From positions 1-64,000 of the forward strand of contig NZ_ARQK01000056.1 in the NCBI RefSeq assembly GCF_000385215.1: DNA of 64,000 nt. Reading direction: 5' to 3'. Of this stretch, positions 6,495-48,868 are shown in pieces. Source of the stretch: Thioalkalivibrio thiocyanoxidans ARh2 (GTDB lineage: Bacteria > Pseudomonadota > Gammaproteobacteria > Ectothiorhodospirales > Ectothiorhodospiraceae). Both the position numbers and the translations under genes were made by a program. The stretch's first letter is position 1. The number at the start of each line of letters is the position of its first letter. The notes below the pieces were generated by a model that was not told the origin of the DNA, ran no database searches, and worked only from the letters and a program-made list of their open reading frames with translations.

Positions 6495-7254
6495 GACCCC
6501 GGACAGTGGGCCGCAACGGATCGCGCTGGTCACCGGCGCCGCGCGCGGGATCGGCCTCGGCATCGCCGAGCGCCTGATGCAGGATGGCTGGCAGGTGGTG
6601 CTGGCCGATGTCGACGGCCGCGAATGCGAACAGTCCGCCGCGAGCCTGGGGCCCGCCGCCCGGGCCATCGCGCTGGATGTCCGCGACGAGGAACAGGTCC
6701 GCGAGGCCATTCGGCGCACGGAGGAATGGTACGGCGGCCTCGATGCCCTGGTGAACAACGCCGGCATCAGCGACCCGCACTCCGGGCCACTGGAAGAACT
6801 GGAGCTGGCCGACTGGCAGCGCTGGCTGGATACCAACCTGACCGGCGTCTTCCTGCTCGGCAAGTACGCCCTGCCCCTGCTGCGCCGCCGCCGGGGCGCC
6901 ATCGTGAACATCAGCTCCACCCGCGCCCTGCAGTCGGAGCCGGACACCGAGGCCTACGCCGCCAGCAAGGGCGGGCTGGACGCCTTCACCCACGCGCTGG
7001 CCATCAGCGCCGGCCCGGAGGTCCGCGTCAACGCCATCCGCCCCGGCTGGATCGACACCCGCAGCCCCGACCAGCAACAGGCCGAACCGCTGTCCGCACA
7101 GGACCACGCCCAGCACCCGGTCGGCCGCGTCGGCCAGCCCGGCGACATCGCCGCCCTCACCGCCTTTCTGCTCGGCCCCGACGCCGGCTTCGTCACCGGC
7201 CAGATATGGACCGCCGACGGCGGTATGACCCGCCGCATGATCTACGCCGACTGA
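6487..7254 (+). CDS. SDR family NAD(P)-dependent oxidoreductase
   Basis: A 255-residue classical short-chain dehydrogenase. The cofactor motif TGAARGIG is near residues 16-23, followed by VNNAGISD, a catalytic Ser in ISSTRAL, YAASK as the Tyr-Lys pair and the C-terminal [12 protein letters not shown]. The start is GTG, inside the end of tatD, so translation is probably coupled. The substrate cannot be read from sequence. Asp at the end of beta-2 (VVLADVDG) favours NAD over NADP (family rule). Confidence 0.88.
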
Positions 7255-7256
7255 CC

Positions 7257-7287
7257 GCACGGCAGTCACCACGCCTTGTTCGCACGC
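7257..7287 (+). repeat. Probable fragment of the MITE internal region
   Basis: About 31 bp just after the SDR stop (GCACGGCAGTCACCACGCC...) match, with a few changes, the segment GCACGGCGGTCACCGCGCC...CACGC found inside both complete MITE copies (27405-27435 and 46866-46896 regions). No terminal repeat is recognisable, so this looks like a decayed remnant. Short length makes the call tentative. Confidence 0.5.
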
Positions 7288-7360
7288 CTGAATTCAACAG
7301 ATCACTGCAACGCCTCAGTTCGGTTGGGGTGGTCCACAGCAGCCGTAGAACGGGTGGCTG

Positions 7361-21874: not shown

Positions 21875-21898
21875 GTGTACATGGGTCAGTGTTTCCCT
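21875..21898 (+). repeat. Solo terminal inverted repeat of the MITE family
   Basis: GTGTACATGGGTCAGTGTTTCCCT, differing in a few bases from the element ends at 27457-27480 and 46643-46666. It stands alone in the 78-bp gap between prmA and the DUF3426 gene. No second end or internal sequence is recognisable, so it is a remnant or a solo end. Confidence 0.75.
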
Positions 21899-27048: not shown

Positions 27049-27227
27049 ACGGCCTCCTCTCTTTCGTGATTCGGTCCTTGATACCGACCTTCAAAGGACG
27101 TTTCCGGGACGGTCACACTTTATGAGGCGCACGCACTGGGGTAGTTTACGCGCCGCCCTCTTTTCGTGAAGGAAGTCGCAACCCCGTGTCCGACCCAGGG
27201 AAACACTGATCAATGTACACACTCGCG

Positions 27228-27326
27228 TTGGTATCCCAGGTTTTCCGAGACAAGGCGCGTCGTGCAGCGGGTAGTGGTTCTACCCGCAAGCGGCGCAACG
27301 CAGGATCGGGGAACCTGGGATACCAA
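27228..27326. repeat. Internal hairpin of MITE copy 1
   Basis: Outer arms TTGGTATCCCAGG (27228-27240) and CCTGGGATACCAA (27314-27326) are a perfect 13-bp inverted repeat. The apex is GCGGGTAG - TGGTT - CTACCCGC (27267-27287). The intervening sequence pairs partly. The copy at 46643-46941 keeps the apex exactly and 11 of 13 outer pairs. It should fold strongly in RNA or single-stranded DNA. Confidence 0.8.
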
Positions 27327-27452
27327 CCCCACAACTTATTGAACGAAGGGGCTCGGCCGCTTTTGCGCGGGAACGGCGTTGCGGCTTCCTTGTGCAGAAT
27401 GACTGCACGGCGGTCACCGCGCCTTGTTCCCACGCAAAAGCGACTCGAGCGC

Positions 27453-27466
27453 GAGGGTGTCCATTG
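27453..27466 (+). promoter_or_regulatory. Element-borne ribosome binding site and TTG start for rep
   Basis: GAGGG (27453-27457), six bases, then TTG (27464-27466), inside the right terminal repeat of the MITE. Reading on gives Met-Ile-Ser-Val-Ser-Leu-Asn-Pro and then the Rep Q-motif. A GTG at 27392, 24 codons earlier in the element, is also in frame but has no comparable ribosome site. Confidence 0.6.
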
Positions 27467-29521
27467 ATCAGTGTTTCCCTAAATCCGCAACAACAGGCGG
27501 CCGTGACCACCACGGACCGCCCCCTGCTGGTGCTGGCCGGGGCCGGTTCGGGCAAGACCCGCGTGATCACCGAGAAGATCGCGCACCTGATCGAGCAGCG
27601 CGGGCTGGAGGCGCGCCGGATTGTCGCGATCACCTTTACCAACAAGGCCGCGCGCGAAATGCGCGAGCGCGTCCAGGGGCGCCTGTCGAAGGAACAGGCA
27701 CGCGGGCTCGGCGTCTCCACCTTCCACACCTTCGGGCTGAACTTCCTGCGTCGCGAACTGGCCGCGGCCGGACTGCGTGCGGGCTTCTCCATCCTCGACC
27801 CGGGCGACTGCCGCTCGCTGCTGCGCGAGATCACCTACCGCGACGATACTGGCTCCGAGGTCGACGCCCTGATTGGCCACATCAGTCGCTGGAAGAACGA
27901 CCTGATGACGCCGGAAGAGGCGCTGCACGAGGCCAGCCAGATGAGCGACGCCCCGGAGGCGACCGCCGCGGCCAACCTCTACCCGCGCTACGAGGATGCC
28001 CTGCGGGCCTACAACGCGGTGGACTTCGACGACCTGATCAAGCGCCCGGTGGACTGCCTGCGCGCGGACGCGGAGCTGCGCAACCGCTGGCAGGACCGCA
28101 TCCGCCACCTGCTGGTGGACGAATACCAGGACACCAACTCCGCGCAGTACCAGCTGGTGCGCCTGCTGGTCGGCGTCAGCGATGGCCTGACGGTGGTCGG
28201 CGACGACGACCAGTCGATCTACGCCTGGCGCGGCGCCCGCCCGGAGAACCTCGCACGTCTGCAGCAGGACTTCCCGCGTCTGGAGGTGATCAAGCTGGAG
28301 CAGAACTACCGCTCAACCAACCGCATCCTGCATACCGCGAATGCGCTGATCGCCAACAACCCACATGTATTCGAGAAACGCCTGTGGAGTGCGCTCGGCG
28401 AGGGCGAGAAGATCGAGGTGATCGGCTGCTCCGACGCCGACACCGAGGCCGCGCGCGTGGTCTCCGAGCTGATGCGCCGGCGCTTCCGCCTGAATGCGGG
28501 CTGGGGCGACTTCGCGATCCTCTACCGCAGCAATCACCAGTCCAGGCTGTTCGAGAAGCTCCTGCGCGAGCAGGGCATCCCCTACCGCCTGAGCGGCGGA
28601 CAGTCGTTCTTCGAGAAGGCCGAAATCAAGGACCTGGTCGCCTACCTGCGCCTGCTCGCCAACCCGGACGACAACACCGCCTTCCTGCGCGTGGTCAACG
28701 TGCCGCGCCGAGAGATCGGCCCGGCGACGCTGGAGAAGCTGGGCCACTACGCCAACCAGCGTGGCACCTCGCTGCTGCAGGCAGCGCGCGGGGCCGGCCT
28801 TTCCGAGTACATGGATGCCCGCGCGCAGGCACGCCTGGAACGCTTCACCGACTGGGTCGACGGCTTCCAGCGTCGCGGCATGGAAGAAGCCCCGGACGCG
28901 CTGCTGCGCGCCCTGATCGAGGACATCGACTACGAATCCTGGCTGCTGGAGAACAGCTCCAACCCGCGGGCCGCGACCCGGCGCATGGAGAACGTGCGCG
29001 AGTTCATCGACTGGGTTGGACGCATGGGCGGCGGCAACACCACCGCGGAGTACGGCGACGACGAGGCGGACGACGCGCAGACCATGGACCTGGCCGATAT
29101 CGTCAACCGCATCAGCCTGATGGACATCCTCGACCGCAACCGGGAGTCCCAGGACGGCGACGAGTCCGTGCAGCTCCTGACCCTGCACACCGCCAAGGGC
29201 CTGGAGTTCCCGCATGTCTGCCTGGTGGGTTTCGAGGAGGAGCTGCTGCCGCACCGGGTCAGCGTGGAGGACGATTCCATCGAGGAGGAGCGGCGGCTCG
29301 CCTATGTCGGGCTGACCCGTGCCCAGCAGACCCTGCTGATCACCTACGCCCAGAACCGGACCCGCTACGGCGAGACCATCGAATGCGAGCCCTCGCGCTT
29401 TCTGGACGAGCTGCCCGAAGAACACCTCGAATGGCCGGACGCCAGGCCGCCGGATCCCGAGACGCAGAAGCTCACCGCCCAGGCCCACCTGGCGGGCCTG
29501 AAGGCCATGCTCGGCAACTAG
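27464..29521 (+). CDS. rep: ATP-dependent DNA helicase Rep (start donated by MITE)
   Basis: 685 residues from the TTG start; E. coli Rep is 673. Superfamily 1A motifs are LNPQQQAAV (Q-motif), VLAGAGSGKTRVI (Walker A), LVDEYQDTN, VVGDDDQSIYAWRGA, LEQNYRS, LTLHTAKGLEFPHV and RRLAYVGLTRA. It unwinds DNA 3'-5' and clears protein roadblocks ahead of replication forks. The first five residues after Met (ISVSL, with Leu shared) are encoded by the MITE terminal repeat. The natural N-terminus (M-x-LNP) has evidently been replaced. A terminator follows. Confidence 0.95.
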   Translation: MISVSLNPQQQAAVTTTDRPLLVLAGAGSGKTRVITEKIAHLIEQRGLEARRIVAITFTNKAAREMRERVQGRLSKEQARGLGVSTFHTFGLNFLRRELAAAGLRAGFSILDPGDCRSLLREITYRDDTGSEVDALIGHISRWKNDLMTPEEALHEASQMSDAPEATAAANLYPRYEDALRAYNAVDFDDLIKRPVDCLRADAELRNRWQDRIRHLLVDEYQDTNSAQYQLVRLLVGVSDGLTVVGDDDQSIYAWRGARPENLARLQQDFPRLEVIKLEQNYRSTNRILHTANALIANNPHVFEKRLWSALGEGEKIEVIGCSDADTEAARVVSELMRRRFRLNAGWGDFAILYRSNHQSRLFEKLLREQGIPYRLSGGQSFFEKAEIKDLVAYLRLLANPDDNTAFLRVVNVPRREIGPATLEKLGHYANQRGTSLLQAARGAGLSEYMDARAQARLERFTDWVDGFQRRGMEEAPDALLRALIEDIDYESWLLENSSNPRAATRRMENVREFIDWVGRMGGGNTTAEYGDDEADDAQTMDLADIVNRISLMDILDRNRESQDGDESVQLLTLHTAKGLEFPHVCLVGFEEELLPHRVSVEDDSIEEERRLAYVGLTRAQQTLLITYAQNRTRYGETIECEPSRFLDELPEEHLEWPDARPPDPETQKLTAQAHLAGLKAMLGN

Positions 29522-37899: not shown

Positions 37900-37951
37900 G
37901 TCCCTGCCCTCGTTAGGTCCGTATCCGTTGGTGGCCCGTACCCGCCGCCGG

Positions 37952-37999
37952 GTTCCCTGGGGTACCAACGCGAGCGTGTACATTGATCAGTGTTTCCCT
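37952..37999 (-). repeat. One-ended MITE copy at the end of the Nei-type gene
   Basis: About 48 bp matching the hairpin-side end of the complete elements: AGGGAAACACTGATCAATGT then ACACGCTCGCGTTGG on the minus strand. Beyond that, homology stops. The subterminal motif here is GAGCG rather than the GAGGG seen at ends that start genes. The terminal repeat supplies the last codons and stop (GGG AAA CAC TGA) of the adjacent glycosylase gene. Confidence 0.8.
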
Positions 38000-43072: not shown

Positions 43073-44452
43073 TCAGCCGTCGGCCTTCACCCGTTTTGGA
43101 TCGATGCCCAGTGCCTTGAACTTGCGATAGAGATGGGTGCGCTCCAGCCCCACCCGCTCGGCCAGCCGTGTCATGTTGCCTTCCGAACGCTCCAGTTGCT
43201 GGATCAGATACTCGCGCTCGAACTGCTCGCGCGCCTCGCGCAGCGGCAGGTCGGGGATCGCCAGCGCCCCCTCCTCGAACTCATCGCCGCGCTGCGGCTG
43301 GCCGGTCAGGGTGCGCTCGACCTCGTCGCGGGTGATCTCGTCGCCGGAGCCGAGGATCATCATCCGCTGCACGAGGTTGCGCAGCTCGCGCACATTGCCG
43401 GGCCACTGATACTGCTGCAGCCGCTCCAGCGCCGGACGCTGGAACACCCGCATCGGCAGGCCTTCCTGCTGGTGCAGATGACGCATATGGTAGTCCAGCA
43501 GCTCCGGGATGTCCTCCGCGTGCTCGCGCAGCGGTGGGATCGCCAGTGGCAGTACGTTCAGCCGGTAATACAGGTCCTCGCGAAACCGGCCCTGCTCCAC
43601 GGCCTCGCCGAGATCGTGCTGAGTGGCGGCGATCACCCGTACATTGACGCTGATCGGCTGGTCGCCCCCGATCCGGGTGATGCGCTGGGTGTCCAGGGCA
43701 TGCAGCAGCCGGCCCTGCGTCTGCATGTCCATCTCCGCGACCTCGTCGAGAAACAGCACGCCACCGCCCGCCTGCTCCAGCAAGCCATAGCGCACGCGGT
43801 CGCCCTGCTCGCTGCCGAACAGCTCGCCAATCGCCTCCTCGCCCGACAGCGAACCGACCGAGACCACGATGAACGGACTGTCCCGGCGCGCGCTGCGCGC
43901 ATGCAGAAGGCGGGCGAAGGTCTGCTTGCCCACCCCGGGTTCGCCGGTGATCAGCACCCAGGTGTCGTGCTGCGCCATGCGCTGCACCTGGTCGCGCAGA
44001 TTCACCATCACGGCACTGCCGCCCACCGGATCGGCGACCGTGCCGGCATGGCGTTTCAGACCCACATTCTCGCGCTGCAGGCGGGCAGCCTCCAGGGCGT
44101 TGTTCAGCGTGATCAGCAGCTTGTCGATCGACAGCGGCTTTTCGATGAAGTCATAGGCGCCCAGCCGCGTGGCATCGACGGCAGTCTCCACGTTGCCGTG
44201 CCCGGAGATCATCACCACCGGGCACGGCAGGCCCTCGTCGTCGCCCCATTCCTTGAGCAGGGATATCCCGTCACCGTCCGGCATCCAGACGTCGAGCAGG
44301 ATCAGATCGGGTCGCCGGCTGCGGCGCTGGGCCTTGGCCTCGGTCACCGAGCCGGCCAGCGCCACCTGGTAGCCCTCGTCCTCGAGGACATCCTGCAACA
44401 GCATCCGGATATCCGGTTCGTCGTCGACGACCAGTACGTAGGGTTCGCTCAT
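43073..44452 (-). CDS. ntrX: NtrX-type response regulator lacking the GAFTGA loop
   Basis: 459 residues: a receiver domain (phospho-acceptor Asp54 in LILLDVWMPDGDG, Lys in FIEKPLS), an AAA+ domain (GEPGVGKQTFARLL, VLFLDEVAEM) and a Fis-type HTH (MTRLAERVGLERTHLYRKFK). The sigma-54-contacting GAFTGA motif is absent: after GELFGSEQGDRVRYG the chain runs straight on to LLEQAGGGVLF. This matches NtrX proteins of several proteobacteria, which regulate without a classical sigma-54 activator loop (family knowledge). It overlaps the kinase gene by 4 bp. Potassium uptake genes downstream may be cotranscribed. Confidence 0.92.
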   Translation of the reverse strand: MSEPYVLVVDDEPDIRMLLQDVLEDEGYQVALAGSVTEAKAQRRSRRPDLILLDVWMPDGDGISLLKEWGDDEGLPCPVVMISGHGNVETAVDATRLGAYDFIEKPLSIDKLLITLNNALEAARLQRENVGLKRHAGTVADPVGGSAVMVNLRDQVQRMAQHDTWVLITGEPGVGKQTFARLLHARSARRDSPFIVVSVGSLSGEEAIGELFGSEQGDRVRYGLLEQAGGGVLFLDEVAEMDMQTQGRLLHALDTQRITRIGGDQPISVNVRVIAATQHDLGEAVEQGRFREDLYYRLNVLPLAIPPLREHAEDIPELLDYHMRHLHQQEGLPMRVFQRPALERLQQYQWPGNVRELRNLVQRMMILGSGDEITRDEVERTLTGQPQRGDEFEEGALAIPDLPLREAREQFEREYLIQQLERSEGNMTRLAERVGLERTHLYRKFKALGIDPKRVKADG

Positions 44453-46659
44453 TCCCGTTCCTCGTGGGCCAGGGCCTGCGGGGTATGCTCCACCGGGATG
44501 CGGATGCGGAAGACGGCCCCGCCTTCGCCCGCCGGTGCATTATGGCACTCAATCATGCCCCCATGTTCCTCGACGATCTTCTGTGCGACCGCCAAACCGA
44601 GACCGGTTCCACGTGGCTTGTCCGTCGTGTAGGGCTCAAAGATGCGCTCCAGGAGGTCGGGCTTGATCCCAGGGCCGGTGTCGGTTACGCGCAGCTCGAT
44701 GTGCGGCCCGGCCGGATCGTCGAGATAGGCTGTCGCGATATGGACCGTGAACCCGTCCTGCTCCTTGCCGGCCTCCAGCGCATTCTTGATGAGGTTGTGC
44801 AACAGCTGGCGCAGGCGTCCGGCATCGCCACGTATCCCGGGGAGCTCCGGCTCCAGATCGGTCTGCACACGGGAATGCCCGTCGGAATCGACATACAGCT
44901 CGCATACATCCTGGATCAGCTGGTTCAGGTCCACCGAACCAAGCTCCAGGCGCGGGGCCTGGGCGTAGTCGCGGAAGGCGTTGACCAGCGTCTTCATGGC
45001 CTCCACCTGCTGGATGATCGTGCCGGTCGCACGATCCAGAACATCACGGTCGGCCCCGTCCAGGACCTTGCCCAGACGGCGCGACAGACGCTCGGCAGAG
45101 AGCTGGATCGGAGTCAACGGGTTCTTGATCTCGTGCGCCAGGCGGCGTGCTACCTCGCCCCAGGCGGCGTCGCGCTGCGCCTTCAGGAACTCGGTCATGT
45201 CATCGAACACGATCGCATGCAGGCCGCGGCTGGAGCCCGAGGTCGGCAGCCAGACGGCGCGCGTCATCAGTACCTTGCGCCCGCTGCGGGTGAATACGAC
45301 CACCTGCCGTGACCATTCGTCCTCCTGCCGCACCAGGGCATCGCTGATCGCCTCGAAGAACTGCCCGACCAGCGGGCACTCGACACCCAACTCGGAGATC
45401 GGACGGGTGCGGGCGCCCTGCAGCTCGCACTCCAGGATCTGGCCGGCGGCCTCGTTGGCGGTGCGCAGGCGCAGACTGCCGTCCAGCGCCAGCACGCCGG
45501 AACGGAGATGCTGGAGGACACTCTCCAGATAGGCACGCTCGGCATCCAGCAGGCGGCGGTTGCGCTCGGCCTCGTCACGGGCCTCGTTCAGCGTGCGCGT
45601 CATGGCGTTGAACGACTGCACCAGAAAACCCAGCTCGTCGGCCCGTTGCACCGCGAGCCGGGTGGAATAGTCCCCGGCCGCGACCGAGCGTGTCCCCTGC
45701 ACCAGGTCGGAGATCGGGCGCACCATACGTCGCGCGACCAGCAGTCCGGCCCACAACGCCGCCATCAGGGAGATCGCCAGGGCCAGCGACAGGGTGAAGA
45801 TAAAGCCCTGGATAATGGGGCCGCGCAGGTAGGCGAACTCGCGGTAGCCGGCGAAGGCATCCTCCACGCGCTGCGACAGTGCCGACATGCGCGGGTCCAC
45901 CGGGTAGATCCCCTGCAGGATGCGGTTCTCCGCCCCCGGTCGGCGACTGCTGGTGGTGGCCACCACACGGATGACCAGCGAGCCATCGGGCTGCGGCTCC
46001 AGTCGAGAGTAGGGCTGCTCCGGGCGGACCCGCATCAGGATATCGGCCCCCGGCGGGCTCGGCAGGCGGCGGATCGGGCTGTCGGTGGAGGAGGCGATGA
46101 TGCGGTTGTTGGAACCGACCAGGGTCAGTTCCTGGGCCTCGACCTGGCGGCGATAGTCATTCAGGGCCAGCGGGACCAGGCCCTCGGACACGCCTTCCAG
46201 CTCGCTCATCATCTCCTGCGTCTCGGTCGCCAGCTGGCGCACACGCAGATCCAGCGACGAACGCGACAGCTCCAGGGCGTCCTCCAGGGCGGAATCCACG
46301 CGCACGTCGAACCACGAATCCACGCCCTCGTTCAGGAACTCGAAGGAGAAGTAATAGACGACCGAGACCGGCAGCACCGCGACCAGCATGAAGCCCCCGA
46401 CCAGCCTCAGCGTCAGGCGACTGCCGGGCACGCCCTTGCGATACTGGGCGACCATGCGCACGAACTGATGGATGATCAGGCCACCCAGCACCAGTAGGAT
46501 TGCGGCGTGGAATACCAGCAGCCACAGGAACAGCTGCTCGAAGCGGGCCTGGTCCTGCGCCGCCCCGCCCATGACCACCAGCGAGGTCAGCAGCAGCAGG
46601 AACAGCAGGCCCATGCCCAGCAGGCCCCACGGGAAGCGCCTTAGGGAAACGCTGATCAA
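44449..46659 (-). CDS. ntrY: NtrY-type sensor histidine kinase (start donated by MITE)
   Basis: 736 residues from a TTG in the MITE end. Hydrophobic helices near residues 13-33, 45-70 and 85-110 and a fourth before the HAMP domain (RRMVRPISDLVQGTRSVAAG) define a membrane sensor with an extracytoplasmic loop. A PAS domain follows. The kinase core has RRLAHEIKNPLTPIQLSAER (phospho-His at about 509), LLHNLIKNALEA (N box) and DTGPGIKPDLLERIFEPYTT. The first residues MISVSL are from the element; host-like sequence begins RRFPWGLLG. An internal ATG at residue 16 is an alternative start but would shorten the first helix. Confidence 0.9.
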   Translation of the reverse strand: MISVSLRRFPWGLLGMGLLFLLLLTSLVVMGGAAQDQARFEQLFLWLLVFHAAILLVLGGLIIHQFVRMVAQYRKGVPGSRLTLRLVGGFMLVAVLPVSVVYYFSFEFLNEGVDSWFDVRVDSALEDALELSRSSLDLRVRQLATETQEMMSELEGVSEGLVPLALNDYRRQVEAQELTLVGSNNRIIASSTDSPIRRLPSPPGADILMRVRPEQPYSRLEPQPDGSLVIRVVATTSSRRPGAENRILQGIYPVDPRMSALSQRVEDAFAGYREFAYLRGPIIQGFIFTLSLALAISLMAALWAGLLVARRMVRPISDLVQGTRSVAAGDYSTRLAVQRADELGFLVQSFNAMTRTLNEARDEAERNRRLLDAERAYLESVLQHLRSGVLALDGSLRLRTANEAAGQILECELQGARTRPISELGVECPLVGQFFEAISDALVRQEDEWSRQVVVFTRSGRKVLMTRAVWLPTSGSSRGLHAIVFDDMTEFLKAQRDAAWGEVARRLAHEIKNPLTPIQLSAERLSRRLGKVLDGADRDVLDRATGTIIQQVEAMKTLVNAFRDYAQAPRLELGSVDLNQLIQDVCELYVDSDGHSRVQTDLEPELPGIRGDAGRLRQLLHNLIKNALEAGKEQDGFTVHIATAYLDDPAGPHIELRVTDTGPGIKPDLLERIFEPYTTDKPRGTGLGLAVAQKIVEEHGGMIECHNAPAGEGGAVFRIRIPVEHTPQALAHEERE

Positions 46660-46941
46660 TGTACACCCTCGCGTTGGCAACCCAGGTTTTCCGAGACCAG
46701 GTGCGTCGCGCAGCGGGTAGTGGTTCTACCCGCCCGTTCTTGATTGATTCGGGGCGCAACGCAGGATCGGGGAACCTGGGGTACCAACCCCAAGGGGCTC
46801 GGCCGCCCGTTGTTATCAATAACGGGCGCGGGAACGGCGTTTCGGCGCCCTTGTGCAGAATGACTGCACGGCCGTCGCCGCGCCTTGTTCGCACGCAAGA
46901 GCGACGAAGCAGCAAGCGTGTACATTGACCAGCGTTTCCCT
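46643..46941 (-). mobile_element. MITE-like element, copy 2 (between the DUF4390 gene and ntrY)
   Basis: 299 bp, homologous to 27197-27480: same terminal repeats (AGGGAAACGCTGATCAATGT; inverted ATTGACCAGCGTTTCCCT), same hairpin with GCGGGTAG-TGGTT-CTACCCGC and the shared block GTGCAGAATGACTGCACGG. It differs by small insertions, including an extra hairpin CCCGTTGTTATCAATAACGG. It fills the entire gap between two genes of one operon: its right end completes the TAG stop of the DUF4390 gene and its left end supplies the start of ntrY. No transposase gene. Confidence 0.87.
46659..46670 (-). promoter_or_regulatory. Element-borne ribosome binding site and start for ntrY
   Basis: On the minus strand, GAGGG (46670-46666), six bases, then TTG (46659-46657). 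The geometry is identical to the rep junction at 27453-27466. A second TTG seven codons upstream (46680), also in the element, lacks a ribosome site. Confidence 0.6.
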
Positions 46942-47509
46942 AATCCAGGGACCATCGGTGCCACTCCCGCCGGGTGGTGAGGTCGCCGCGCAGTCCGGCA
47001 TCCAGCTGCAACGGCAAGGGCAGCGCCGAATACACCAGGAGCAGGCGCGCCGCCATGTTGTAGTCTTCCGGACGCTCGCGCACCGCACCCGGCACGCCAT
47101 GCATCGGCAGGCGCCCGAGTCGCCGGGCCACATGCTCCAGGGCATCGCCCAGGGTCGGTTTGAGCTCCATCCGGTCGTCGTTCACGTCGGTTACCAGGAA
47201 GTAGCGGTTCAGCGCAAAGTATTGCAGCTTGACGCGGCGTGTCTCGCTCTGCACGGACTCCCGCCCCAGCCAGCGATCTTGTTCGATACGCGCCTCGGCC
47301 TCGAACTCCAGCGTGACACCATTGGCCAGCGCCTCCTCCAGCACCTGAGGCAGCCGCATATCGAGCAGCAGGCGCACCAGCAGGGTGTCATCGTCCATCC
47401 AAAGGTGGCGGGCGTCACGGATCTCCAGCGCCTGTGCCGTGACCGGGAAAAGCGCCAGGACGAGCAACCATGCCATCAGAAATCCGATCACCGACCGCCC
47501 CGCGCGCAT
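46940..47509 (-). CDS. DUF4390 domain protein, secreted
   Basis: 189 residues: signal peptide MRAGRSVIGFLMAWLLVLAL ending VTAQA, then a beta-rich domain with DARHLWMDDDTLLVRLLLDM and VKLQYFALNRYFLVTDVNDD. This gene lies between rsmB and ntrY in related bacteria, and its product has been thought of as a partner of the NtrYX system only from position. Start 3 bp after the rsmB stop. Its stop codon is formed at the MITE junction, so the last residues (WSLD) may differ slightly from the ancestral end. Confidence 0.85.
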   Translation of the reverse strand: MRAGRSVIGFLMAWLLVLALFPVTAQALEIRDARHLWMDDDTLLVRLLLDMRLPQVLEEALANGVTLEFEAEARIEQDRWLGRESVQSETRRVKLQYFALNRYFLVTDVNDDRMELKPTLGDALEHVARRLGRLPMHGVPGAVRERPEDYNMAARLLLVYSALPLPLQLDAGLRGDLTTRREWHRWSLD

Positions 47510-47512
47510 GGC

Positions 47513-48868
47513 TCAATCCTTCGTCAACAACGCGTAGTAGAAGCCATCACCGCCTTCCAGGCCCAGTGGCAGCGCCCAGCCCGCCGACCGCGCGCGGGCG
47601 CCGGCGATCGGCGGACCACCCTCGGGCGCCAGCGCCCGCGCATCCGGCGTACGCTGGAGAAAGCCCGAAACCACCGCGTCATTCTCCTCGGCCAACAGCG
47701 AGCAGGTCGCGTACAGCAGACGCCCTCCGGGGCGCAGCAACCCCCAGGCCGCCTCCAGGATACGCGCCTGCTCCGCCGCCAGGCGCGGGATGTCGTCGGC
47801 GCGGCGCAGGGTCTTGATGTCCGGGTGGCGCCGGATCACTCCGGTCGCCGAGCAGGGGACATCCAGCAGGATCGCATCGAAGGGCTGGCCGTCCCACCAG
47901 GCATCGGGGTCGCCCACGTCGGCCGCGGTCAGCTGCGCGGCAAAACCCAGCCGGTCCAGGTTCTCGCGCACCTGCACCAGGCGCTCGGCGTCGCTGTCCA
48001 GCGCGGTCAACCGGAGTTCGCCACGGGCCCGCTCCAGCAAGTGCCCGGTCTTGCCGCCCGGGGCCGCGCAGGCATCCAGCACACGCTCGCCCGGCTGCGG
48101 ATCGAGCAGCACCGCTGCCCACTGCGCGGACGCGTCCTGCACCGAGAGCCGACCCTCGGCAAAACCGGGCAGCCGGGCCACGTCGGCGGGCTCCTCCAGG
48201 GTCAGGGCCGCCTCCAGTTGCGGATGCGGCTGCGCGGGGTGGCCCGCCACGACCAGTGCCTGGAGGGCGTCCTCGCGCGAGATGCGGGACAGGTTCACGC
48301 GCAGGGTCATGGGCGCGGGCCGGGTGGCCGCCTCCAGCAGCGCCTCCCAGTCGTCGGGCCAGGAGGCGCGGATCGCCTCCAGCAGCCATTCCGGAACGGC
48401 ATAACGCAGCGCCGGGTCTTCCCGGACCGCGGCCTCCAGGGCATCCTGCTCGCGCTGCGCGCGCCGCAGTACCGCATTGATCAGCCCCACGGCACCGGGG
48501 CGATGGATCGCCCGCGCGAGTTCCGCGGTCTCGCGCACCGCCGCGTGGTCCCGGGTGGAGAAATGCATCAGTTCGGCCAGCCCCTGCGCCAACAGCACAC
48601 CGATCACCGCGTCTTTCTTGCGCAGCGGGCGCTCCAGGAACCCGTTCACCAGCGCCGACAGCTGCGGATACCAGCGCAGCGTGGTGTAGGCCAGCGCCTG
48701 CACCCAGGCCGCGTCGCGGGCATTCAGTCCGTCGGTCGCGTGCTCGACCGCGCGCGTCAGGGAATGCCCCTGCAGAACGACCCCCTCGGCCGCCTCCAGT
48801 GCTCGCTGCCGCGGGGAGCGCGAGTCCACCCGCGAGGGCACGATCCGTCCGGAGCGCTTGCCCGCCAT
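47513..48868 (-). CDS. rsmB: 16S rRNA m5C967 methyltransferase
   Basis: 451 residues. The NusB-like N-terminal domain (AAEGVVLQGHSLTRAVEHA) is followed by the SAM-dependent RNA methyltransferase domain: DACAAPGGKTGHLLE, LLDVPCSATGVIRRHPDIKT and the catalytic Cys in YATCSLLAEEND. It lies 3 bp downstream of fmt, the standard def-fmt-rsmB order. Confidence 0.96.
   Translation of the reverse strand: MAGKRSGRIVPSRVDSRSPRQRALEAAEGVVLQGHSLTRAVEHATDGLNARDAAWVQALAYTTLRWYPQLSALVNGFLERPLRKKDAVIGVLLAQGLAELMHFSTRDHAAVRETAELARAIHRPGAVGLINAVLRRAQREQDALEAAVREDPALRYAVPEWLLEAIRASWPDDWEALLEAATRPAPMTLRVNLSRISREDALQALVVAGHPAQPHPQLEAALTLEEPADVARLPGFAEGRLSVQDASAQWAAVLLDPQPGERVLDACAAPGGKTGHLLERARGELRLTALDSDAERLVQVRENLDRLGFAAQLTAADVGDPDAWWDGQPFDAILLDVPCSATGVIRRHPDIKTLRRADDIPRLAAEQARILEAAWGLLRPGGRLLYATCSLLAEENDAVVSGFLQRTPDARALAPEGGPPIAGARARSAGWALPLGLEGGDGFYYALLTKD

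Follow-up and report, generated by a model that had tools for sequence, protein, structure and literature searches.

In the soda-lake sulfur bacterium Thioalkalivibrio thiocyanoxidans ARh2, a 297-bp miniature inverted-repeat element (MITE) separates the DUF4390 gene from the sensor-kinase gene ntrY. The reading that we favor, and consider probable, is that the MITE was mobilized by an IS5-type transposase into the stop codon of DUF4390, that the stop was kept, that ntrY lost its ancestral start and was supplied with a TTG by the element, and that NtrY synthesis was lowered or uncoupled. Comparison of genomes shows that the element was inserted, that DUF4390 kept its stop and ntrY lost its start, that the TTG is in frame and that an insertion sequence (IS) with matching ends exists; from this comparison we infer that ntrY is translated from the terminal-repeat TTG. 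As far as sequences can tell, the insertion is real and its consequence at this one junction is unusual and has arisen twice; the functional effects described below are predicted. With 18 empty, 8 filled and 2 separately filled junctions in one genus, the locus offers a clean, replicated natural experiment. It opens the question of how overlapping, presumably coupled genes survive separation by a mobile hairpin.

The Element between DUF4390 and ntrY

The window, the whole stretch of 64,000 nucleotides analyzed here, carries on its minus strand the gene order def-fmt-rsmB-DUF4390-ntrY-ntrX, with a Pfam match for each protein. The DUF4390 gene (46940..47509, minus strand; PF14334) encodes a protein with relatives in Thioalkalivibrio sp. 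ALJ21 (94% identity) and ALJ3 (91%). Read from its TTG start, ntrY spans 44449..46659 on the minus strand and encodes the domains PF19312 (NtrY_N), HAMP, HisKA and HATPase_c. The next gene in the same run, ntrX (43073..44452, minus strand), has response regulator and sigma-54 domains; its best match, NF051870, scored 505 bits, under the curated cut-off of 600.

The gap between DUF4390 and ntrY is fully occupied by the element (46644..46940, minus strand in gene orientation), into which the upstream gene reaches by 1 nt and the downstream gene by 16 nt. The initial annotation had proposed that a MITE exactly fills the gap between these two genes, and this holds: the 297-bp element spans the whole of it. 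The limits given at the time, 46643-46941, located the element correctly, but the element proper is 46644-46940 with a TA on either side. Its identification rests on the inverted repeat, on the family profile and on the empty site in the related genome G040. The repeat (46641-46672 and 46912-46943) measures 32 nt and is 91% complementary with flanking bases included, and the profile matched this copy over positions 1-283 of 283 (E 1.5e-89). Six end-like matches occur in the window, compared with a shuffle mean of 0.00. The longest listed open reading frame wholly within the element encodes 89 aa (46659-46928, plus strand); IS transposases are far longer.

Both ends of the element touch coding signals. 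The DUF4390 stop codon TAG occupies 46942-46940 and consists of the target TA (46941..46942) and a G (46940) that is also the first base of the element. A second copy of the target TA lies on the ntrY side (46642..46643), where G040 has a single TA (TTAA). The earlier suggestion that one element end forms this stop is correct for the shared G; the stop codon itself pre-existed as the target site and was preserved. The suggestion that the other end holds the start of ntrY was borne out by a predicted new start, an in-frame TTG (46657..46659, minus strand) within the terminal repeat, 16 nt inside the ntrY-side end. A Shine-Dalgarno-like GAGGG (46666..46670, minus strand) lies 6 nt before it. The outermost G/C of each end may be part of a 4-bp target duplication, which would place the core at 46645-46939.

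MITE Family and IS5-Family Insertion Sequences

The family, with members of about 300 bp, was found in 13 of the 25 Thioalkalivibrio genomes searched (the strain's own and 12 of 24 same-genus relatives) and in 0 of 15 genomes outside the genus, 40 genomes being searched in all. A DNA search of the own genome gave at least 40 element places (40 of 115 candidate places were scored) and, besides these, 20 weaker matches, mostly single-arm, among the matches listed. The end pattern occurs at 86 ends in this genome against 0 for the reversed control, and a similar pattern gave 111 ends in G044 against 0 for its control. A total of 69 different full-length copies (G044, 41; G000, 28) came from stretches around the matches; 45 of them lie between same-direction genes, 13 between divergent and 7 between convergent ones, with 4 contexts left unassigned. 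The 60 seed copies, picked by length (240-340 bp), cluster near 253, 268, 283, 297 and 312 bp, and their alignment contains three optional blocks of roughly 15 columns each. A second full-length copy, 282 bp long, lies in the window at 27198..27479 (profile match E 1e-91), and further family remnants or single ends were seen at 37935-37998, 21876-21897 and 7226-7300. Being short, free of a transposase gene, bounded by terminal inverted repeats and present in many dispersed copies, the family is a MITE of a known kind, unreported in the portions of the open-licence literature that were searched.

Insertion sequences with matching ends exist in the genus. G044 holds three IS copies of 1202 bp. 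Their left end, GGGAAACGCTGATCAATG, is identical over 18 nt to the end that the window copy has on the ntrY side, and their right end agrees with the MITE family over 14 nt, L138 having one mismatch there. One IS copy of 1190 bp in G011 has 1 difference over 18 nt from the family consensus. TA dinucleotides flank all four copies. Three proteins from G011 and G013 matched NF033581 (IS5 family) with 270-317 bits against a cut-off of 140, and the IS protein of G044 is 93% identical over 321 aa to the G013 transposase matching this model. The left terminal 18 nt and the TA context are thus the same in IS5-family insertion sequences and in the MITE; the former contain a transposase, the latter has no transposase gene, and the comparison covers the ends only. 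No PF01609 match was found in the own genome, a draft of 61 contigs. These matching ends lead us to infer that the MITE was mobilized by an IS5-type transposase. A MITE copy and a 1202-bp IS were also observed side by side, with TA alone between them (L136, 314-1829).

Empty and Filled Junctions in the Genus

Thirty same-genus genomes were searched, 29 of them with DUF4390; one without a DUF4390 match (G020) and one in which the junction meets a contig end (G019) were left out, as was L061 from another genus. The 28 readable junctions divide into 18 empty ones, 8 with the window-type insertion (G000, G001, G044, G005, G004, G002, G011 and G021) and 2 with a separate, inverted insertion. With the majority of these junctions empty, the element is an insertion, as first annotated. 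Alignment with element-free relatives reveals the pre-insertion junction: G040 reads GGATTAAGACGC with a single TA, and filled G001 reads GGAT-TA-element-TA-AGACGC, so that an empty site and a target duplication are both seen. The same spacer without terminal repeats, which the initial annotation had named as evidence against its claim, was found at 0 of the 28 junctions. That the hairpin is an ancestral intergenic feature instead of an insertion is practically untenable, with no spacer of any kind at 18 of the 28 junctions and dozens of copies elsewhere.

In all 18 empty relatives, DUF4390 ends at the same codon position. The copy in G004 is shortened to 204 bp. G041 and G022 contain an inverted, more diverged copy five bases upstream of the window-type insertion site, and in G022 the ancestral GGACTGAGG is still present after it. 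The inverted copies are a second insertion event.

The eight same-orientation copies form one clade with a support of 0.888 in a midpoint-rooted tree of 76 copies (57 of the 60 seed copies, with junction rows standing in for the ntrY ones, plus 10 junction copies and 9 taken from other genomes; some of the 57 are orthologs common to G000 and G044). This single clade makes one insertion most likely, and branching within it departs somewhat from the gene tree. The insertion would date to an ancestor of several Thioalkalivibrio species. In the gene tree, empty G040 falls near filled G001 and G044 (local support 0.421), and empty G009 is the sister of filled G002 (support 0.999). The empty junction of G040 could be a precise excision or the original allele. 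That of G009 looks like an original or exchanged allele because it reads GGACTGA, whereas excision would leave GGATTAA. Since both are empty though nested among filled genomes, the insertion is not indispensable.

Target Site and Stop Codons

The IS5 group uses a YTAR-type 4-bp target. Among the 69 copies, 19 have TA on both sides and 15 have equal 4-mers when three flanking bases are read together with the terminal base (CTAG/CTAG in 9, TTAA/TTAA in 5). A terminal A goes with an outer TTA and a terminal G with an outer CTA (p 3.5e-5; 69 copies), and this correlation of inner and outer bases favors a 4-bp YTAR duplication. The window copy reads TTAG/CTAA, in which the inner TA alone is an exact duplication. 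Whether the duplication is TA or YTAR, the stop codon TAR belonged to the target. In the reading that we favor, the non-autonomous element, moved by an IS5-family transposase, would have entered a YTAR target at the DUF4390 stop codon, and the target duplication would have preserved that stop.

Gene stops lie exactly at the element edge in 17 of the 69 copies, or at 15 of 61 distinct sites (25%; two genomes, G000 and G044). This exceeds the share of random TA sites that fall at stop codons (88 of 906, 9.7%; p 6e-4). The background held 226 YTAR sites, of which 154 were intergenic or at stops and 43 of these were stop codons (28%), a share no different from that observed (p 0.67). All these counts depend on genes called by simple codon usage, for which the score cut-off was 12 at the observed sites and 20 in the background, and the YTAR background consists of the window and of G044 stretches chosen for holding element ends. 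Active targeting of stop codons was rejected, since the expected 28% matches the observed 25% and no targeting is needed; the hits on stop codons follow from their large share of the harmless targets. This gives a simple quantitative reason for elements at gene ends in a GC-rich genus: more than one in four targets usable without gene breakage is a stop codon, and the duplication restores the stop.

The 14 stop-codon sites other than that at ntrY were compared with G040, G001, G005 and G009, with 30 of 56 matches read. An empty relative was seen for 12 of them, and the upstream gene ends at the same codon in 11 of these 12, the exception being L114 in G009. The empty relatives read for L097 and L120 have TGA instead of TAG or TAA, two relatives of L121 keep a short end remnant, and filled relatives also exist for L097, L114 and L127. 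Judged from these comparisons, a stop-codon insertion would usually leave the upstream gene product unchanged. Three of the other stop-codon insertions (L114, 1702-1984; L127, 1609-1920; L134, 5492-5774) lie at what we take to be the uvrC-pgsA, pilC-pilD and glmU-glmS junctions. Where G044 has a full copy, G040 (L192) and G001 (L201) show an element-end stretch, TAA GGAAACACCGATC, possibly a deletion footprint.

The Start of ntrY

In all of the 8 (of 18) empty genomes examined, an ATG or GTG for ntrY lies seven codons ahead of a Phe/Leu-Pro-Trp motif, inside DUF4390, and the two genes overlap across the DUF4390 stop; the same region also offers other in-frame ntrY starts. In filled genomes, these ancestral starts lie beyond the element, 204-312 nt away. 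The early suspicion that the insertion had changed ntrY translation is confirmed for the start, the ancestral one having been removed as judged from empty and filled junctions. Under our preferred reading, ntrY would have been cut off from its start upstream within DUF4390, and the terminal repeat would have supplied the TTG.

This TTG is in frame in all eight same-orientation filled genomes, which read TTG ATC AGC GTT TCC CTA (ACC instead of ATC in G004). It lies one codon farther out than the old ntrY start, so the N-terminus of NtrY would be just one residue longer. No second in-frame ATG, GTG or TTG lies upstream in G002 and G004; further in-frame GTG or TTG codons occur upstream in the element in G000, G001, G044, G005, G011 and G021. 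In the inverted pair (G041 and G022), an ATG within the element, ten codons before the motif, plays the same start role.

A start of NtrY at the internal ATG at 46614, to which the element would add no coding sequence, is very unlikely. It was chosen by the codon-usage gene caller, whose start choice is crude, and this codon is ATC in G002, G004, G011 and G021. The upstream codons are conserved as protein across the 18 genomes compared, and by eye a start at 46614 would cut into the first hydrophobic stretch. Among filled genomes, the codons from the TTG to this ATG encode nearly the same protein, with R/G and L/F differences between groups and with synonymous changes (CCG/CCA/CCT, AGG/AGA).

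Five of the 8 junction copies have the GAGGG ahead of the TTG, as does the corresponding end of 1 of 57 other seed copies; G001, G044 and G005 lack it. Its predicted anti-Shine-Dalgarno energy is -6.4 kcal/mol, compared with -3.4 to -3.9 in the other three junction copies and -7.0 kcal/mol in four empty genomes, and it breaks one stem pair. This enrichment hints at adaptation. Because the GAGGG-bearing copies are related, they represent one or two evolutionary events, and adaptation is hinted at rather than proven.

TTG is common at element ends generally, being seen at 45 of 114 in other copies. We rejected the idea that the family routinely donates starts: full-length copies face 55 gene starts, and at 3 of these (L002, L006 and L115) the nearest in-frame start is the element's own, with no native one in the following 30 nt. 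The ATG at 46614 keeps the two ntrY copies narrowly out of this count. The contexts of L002 and L115 are divergent, and at L101 the gene caller placed a start 16 nt inside the element.

Hairpin Folding and Predicted Effect on NtrY

The transcript strand of the element folds with a predicted energy of -191.3 kcal/mol (z = -9.2; matched by 0 of 100 shuffles). The probability that the start codon is unpaired is 0.00-0.03 in 10 of 10 filled genomes, compared with 0.50-0.94 in empty genomes, of which 4 of the 18 were folded. For the Shine-Dalgarno region the values are 0.00-0.65 in the 10 filled and 0.07-0.32 in the 4 empty genomes, without clear separation. The folds are of the isolated strand, ignore co-transcriptional folding and translating ribosomes, and used stretches of different length for filled and empty genomes. 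With its start codon inside the hairpin stem, ntrY is likely translated less, or in a decoupled way that depends on ribosomes, helicases or RNase III to open the stem. In our preferred reading, NtrY synthesis would fall or lose its link to DUF4390 if neither ribosomes nor an RNase kept the stem open. Coupling by stem melting was also considered; with 12 nt of the 5' arm blocked at the DUF4390 stop to mimic a terminating ribosome, the start was unpaired with a probability of at most 0.17. The constrained fold leaves the start paired, which argues against simple coupling by melting.

It is possible, though doubtful, that the element is a neutral passenger: the insertion and the TTG start would be as described, and the amount of NtrY would be unchanged with the stem kept open by ribosomes or RNase. 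In line with neutrality, many gene junctions tolerate the family (45 of 69 copies between same-direction genes), the close strains G040 and G009 are without the element here, and pairing of the Shine-Dalgarno region does not exceed that in empty genomes. However, the start codon is predicted to be paired in every filled genome, and the GAGGG enrichment at this locus (5/8 vs 1/57) would be odd if translation were unaffected, even if it reflects one or two events only.

The stem might instead act as a bridge, the DUF4390 stop and the ntrY start being paired side by side so that a terminating ribosome crosses and re-initiates. We regard this as improbable. Two separate insertions in opposite orientations at the junction have reached the same stop/start geometry. 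If true, the bridge would mean that the coupling of the ancestral overlap was rebuilt across a 300-nt hairpin.

An insulating role, in which the hairpin stops transcription and ntrYX is read from a promoter of its own, is highly doubtful. The hairpin is very stable, but the element contains no intrinsic terminator (GC stem with T run), the sole such site in 46560-47560 being at 47497-47485. No sigma-70-like promoter was found in 46560-47560, this promoter type and stretch being those scanned. A separate strong ntrY promoter would have counted against the initial annotation, and none of this type emerged in the scanned stretch. For the changed transcriptional read-through that the initial annotation suggested, the element offers neither a terminator-like nor a promoter-like site.

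Finally, the hairpin could be a domesticated switch, a processing or regulatory site (for example for RNase III) that sets the DUF4390:NtrY ratio and is under selection. Its long stem fits this idea, as does the ratio of element divergence to four-fold-site divergence, which is 0.21-0.51 in 16 of 16 between-group pairs. RNase III cleavage of Correia-element transcripts is a precedent, according to a 2024 review (PMC10969869). The stem pair T-A has become C-G on both sides in 4 of the 8 junction copies, and the outer 22 pairs are free of mismatches in 7 of 8. Against it, 28 of 57 other copies are likewise perfect over the 22 pairs, keeping matching arms, and a search of 46500-47100 against Rfam at E up to 1 found no match. 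Covariation in the stem was rejected as proof of an RNA function, with a single two-sided change and with other copies also matching arm to arm. Within groups, the divergence ratio is 0.23-0.72 in 11 of 12 pairs and 1.77 for G001-G044. Between these two close strains, optional blocks of about 15 nt have been swapped (46644-46940 and its orthologs in L034, L035 and L040), and the end bases are locus-specific despite the swaps. The swaps suggest that dispersed copies undergo gene conversion. The low divergence had suggested purifying selection on the element, which was set aside because of the swaps and the ratio of 1.77, which point to gene conversion rather than constraint. We consider a domesticated switch unlikely.

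Comparison with Known Systems

In the open-licence literature, a search for MITEs with translational coupling found nothing, and the portions available contained no report of a MITE replacing a conserved gene's start by splitting an overlap. For Thioalkalivibrio, the miniature inverted repeats described in the portions of this literature seen are REP repeats only. Chunjie, a MITE of Geobacter uraniireducens, reportedly leaves operon structure undisturbed, according to the title of Chen et al. (2008). A 2024 review describes Chunjie as disrupting one copy of a phosphate uptake operon (passage in PMC10969869). As here, a MITE of similar size lies in an operon; unlike at the Thioalkalivibrio junction, the relevant passages mention neither a donated start codon nor a split gene overlap (PMC5896051, PMC10969869). 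The terms "stop codon" and "start codon" are absent from the main text of that review (PMC10969869). Start codons near element ends are noted for an Acinetobacter MITE (PMC6382973).

Correia/NEMIS and ERIC elements share with the present element the terminal TA, a long transcript stem and a gene-adjacent place in transcripts, and RNase III or RNase E effects are reported for them (PMC10969869, PMC2229807). They are different elements of other bacteria, likened here by description and not by sequence. BOX repeats of Streptococcus pneumoniae encode the stop codon of a gene in 36 cases, with no strong evidence of truncation (PMC3049150), which is the same outcome as that of the Thioalkalivibrio stop-codon insertions. 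BOX is modular in sequence, unlike the Thioalkalivibrio MITE, and its start codons, as described there, belong to short BOX-encoded reading frames without known relatives and not to a conserved downstream gene (PMC3049150). QMITEs of Coxiella burnetii lie at gene 3' ends, as here, and their authors suggest RNase III and stalling effects (PMC5896051). In their enhC example the protein is extended in frame (PMC5896051), whereas the upstream protein in Thioalkalivibrio is unchanged.
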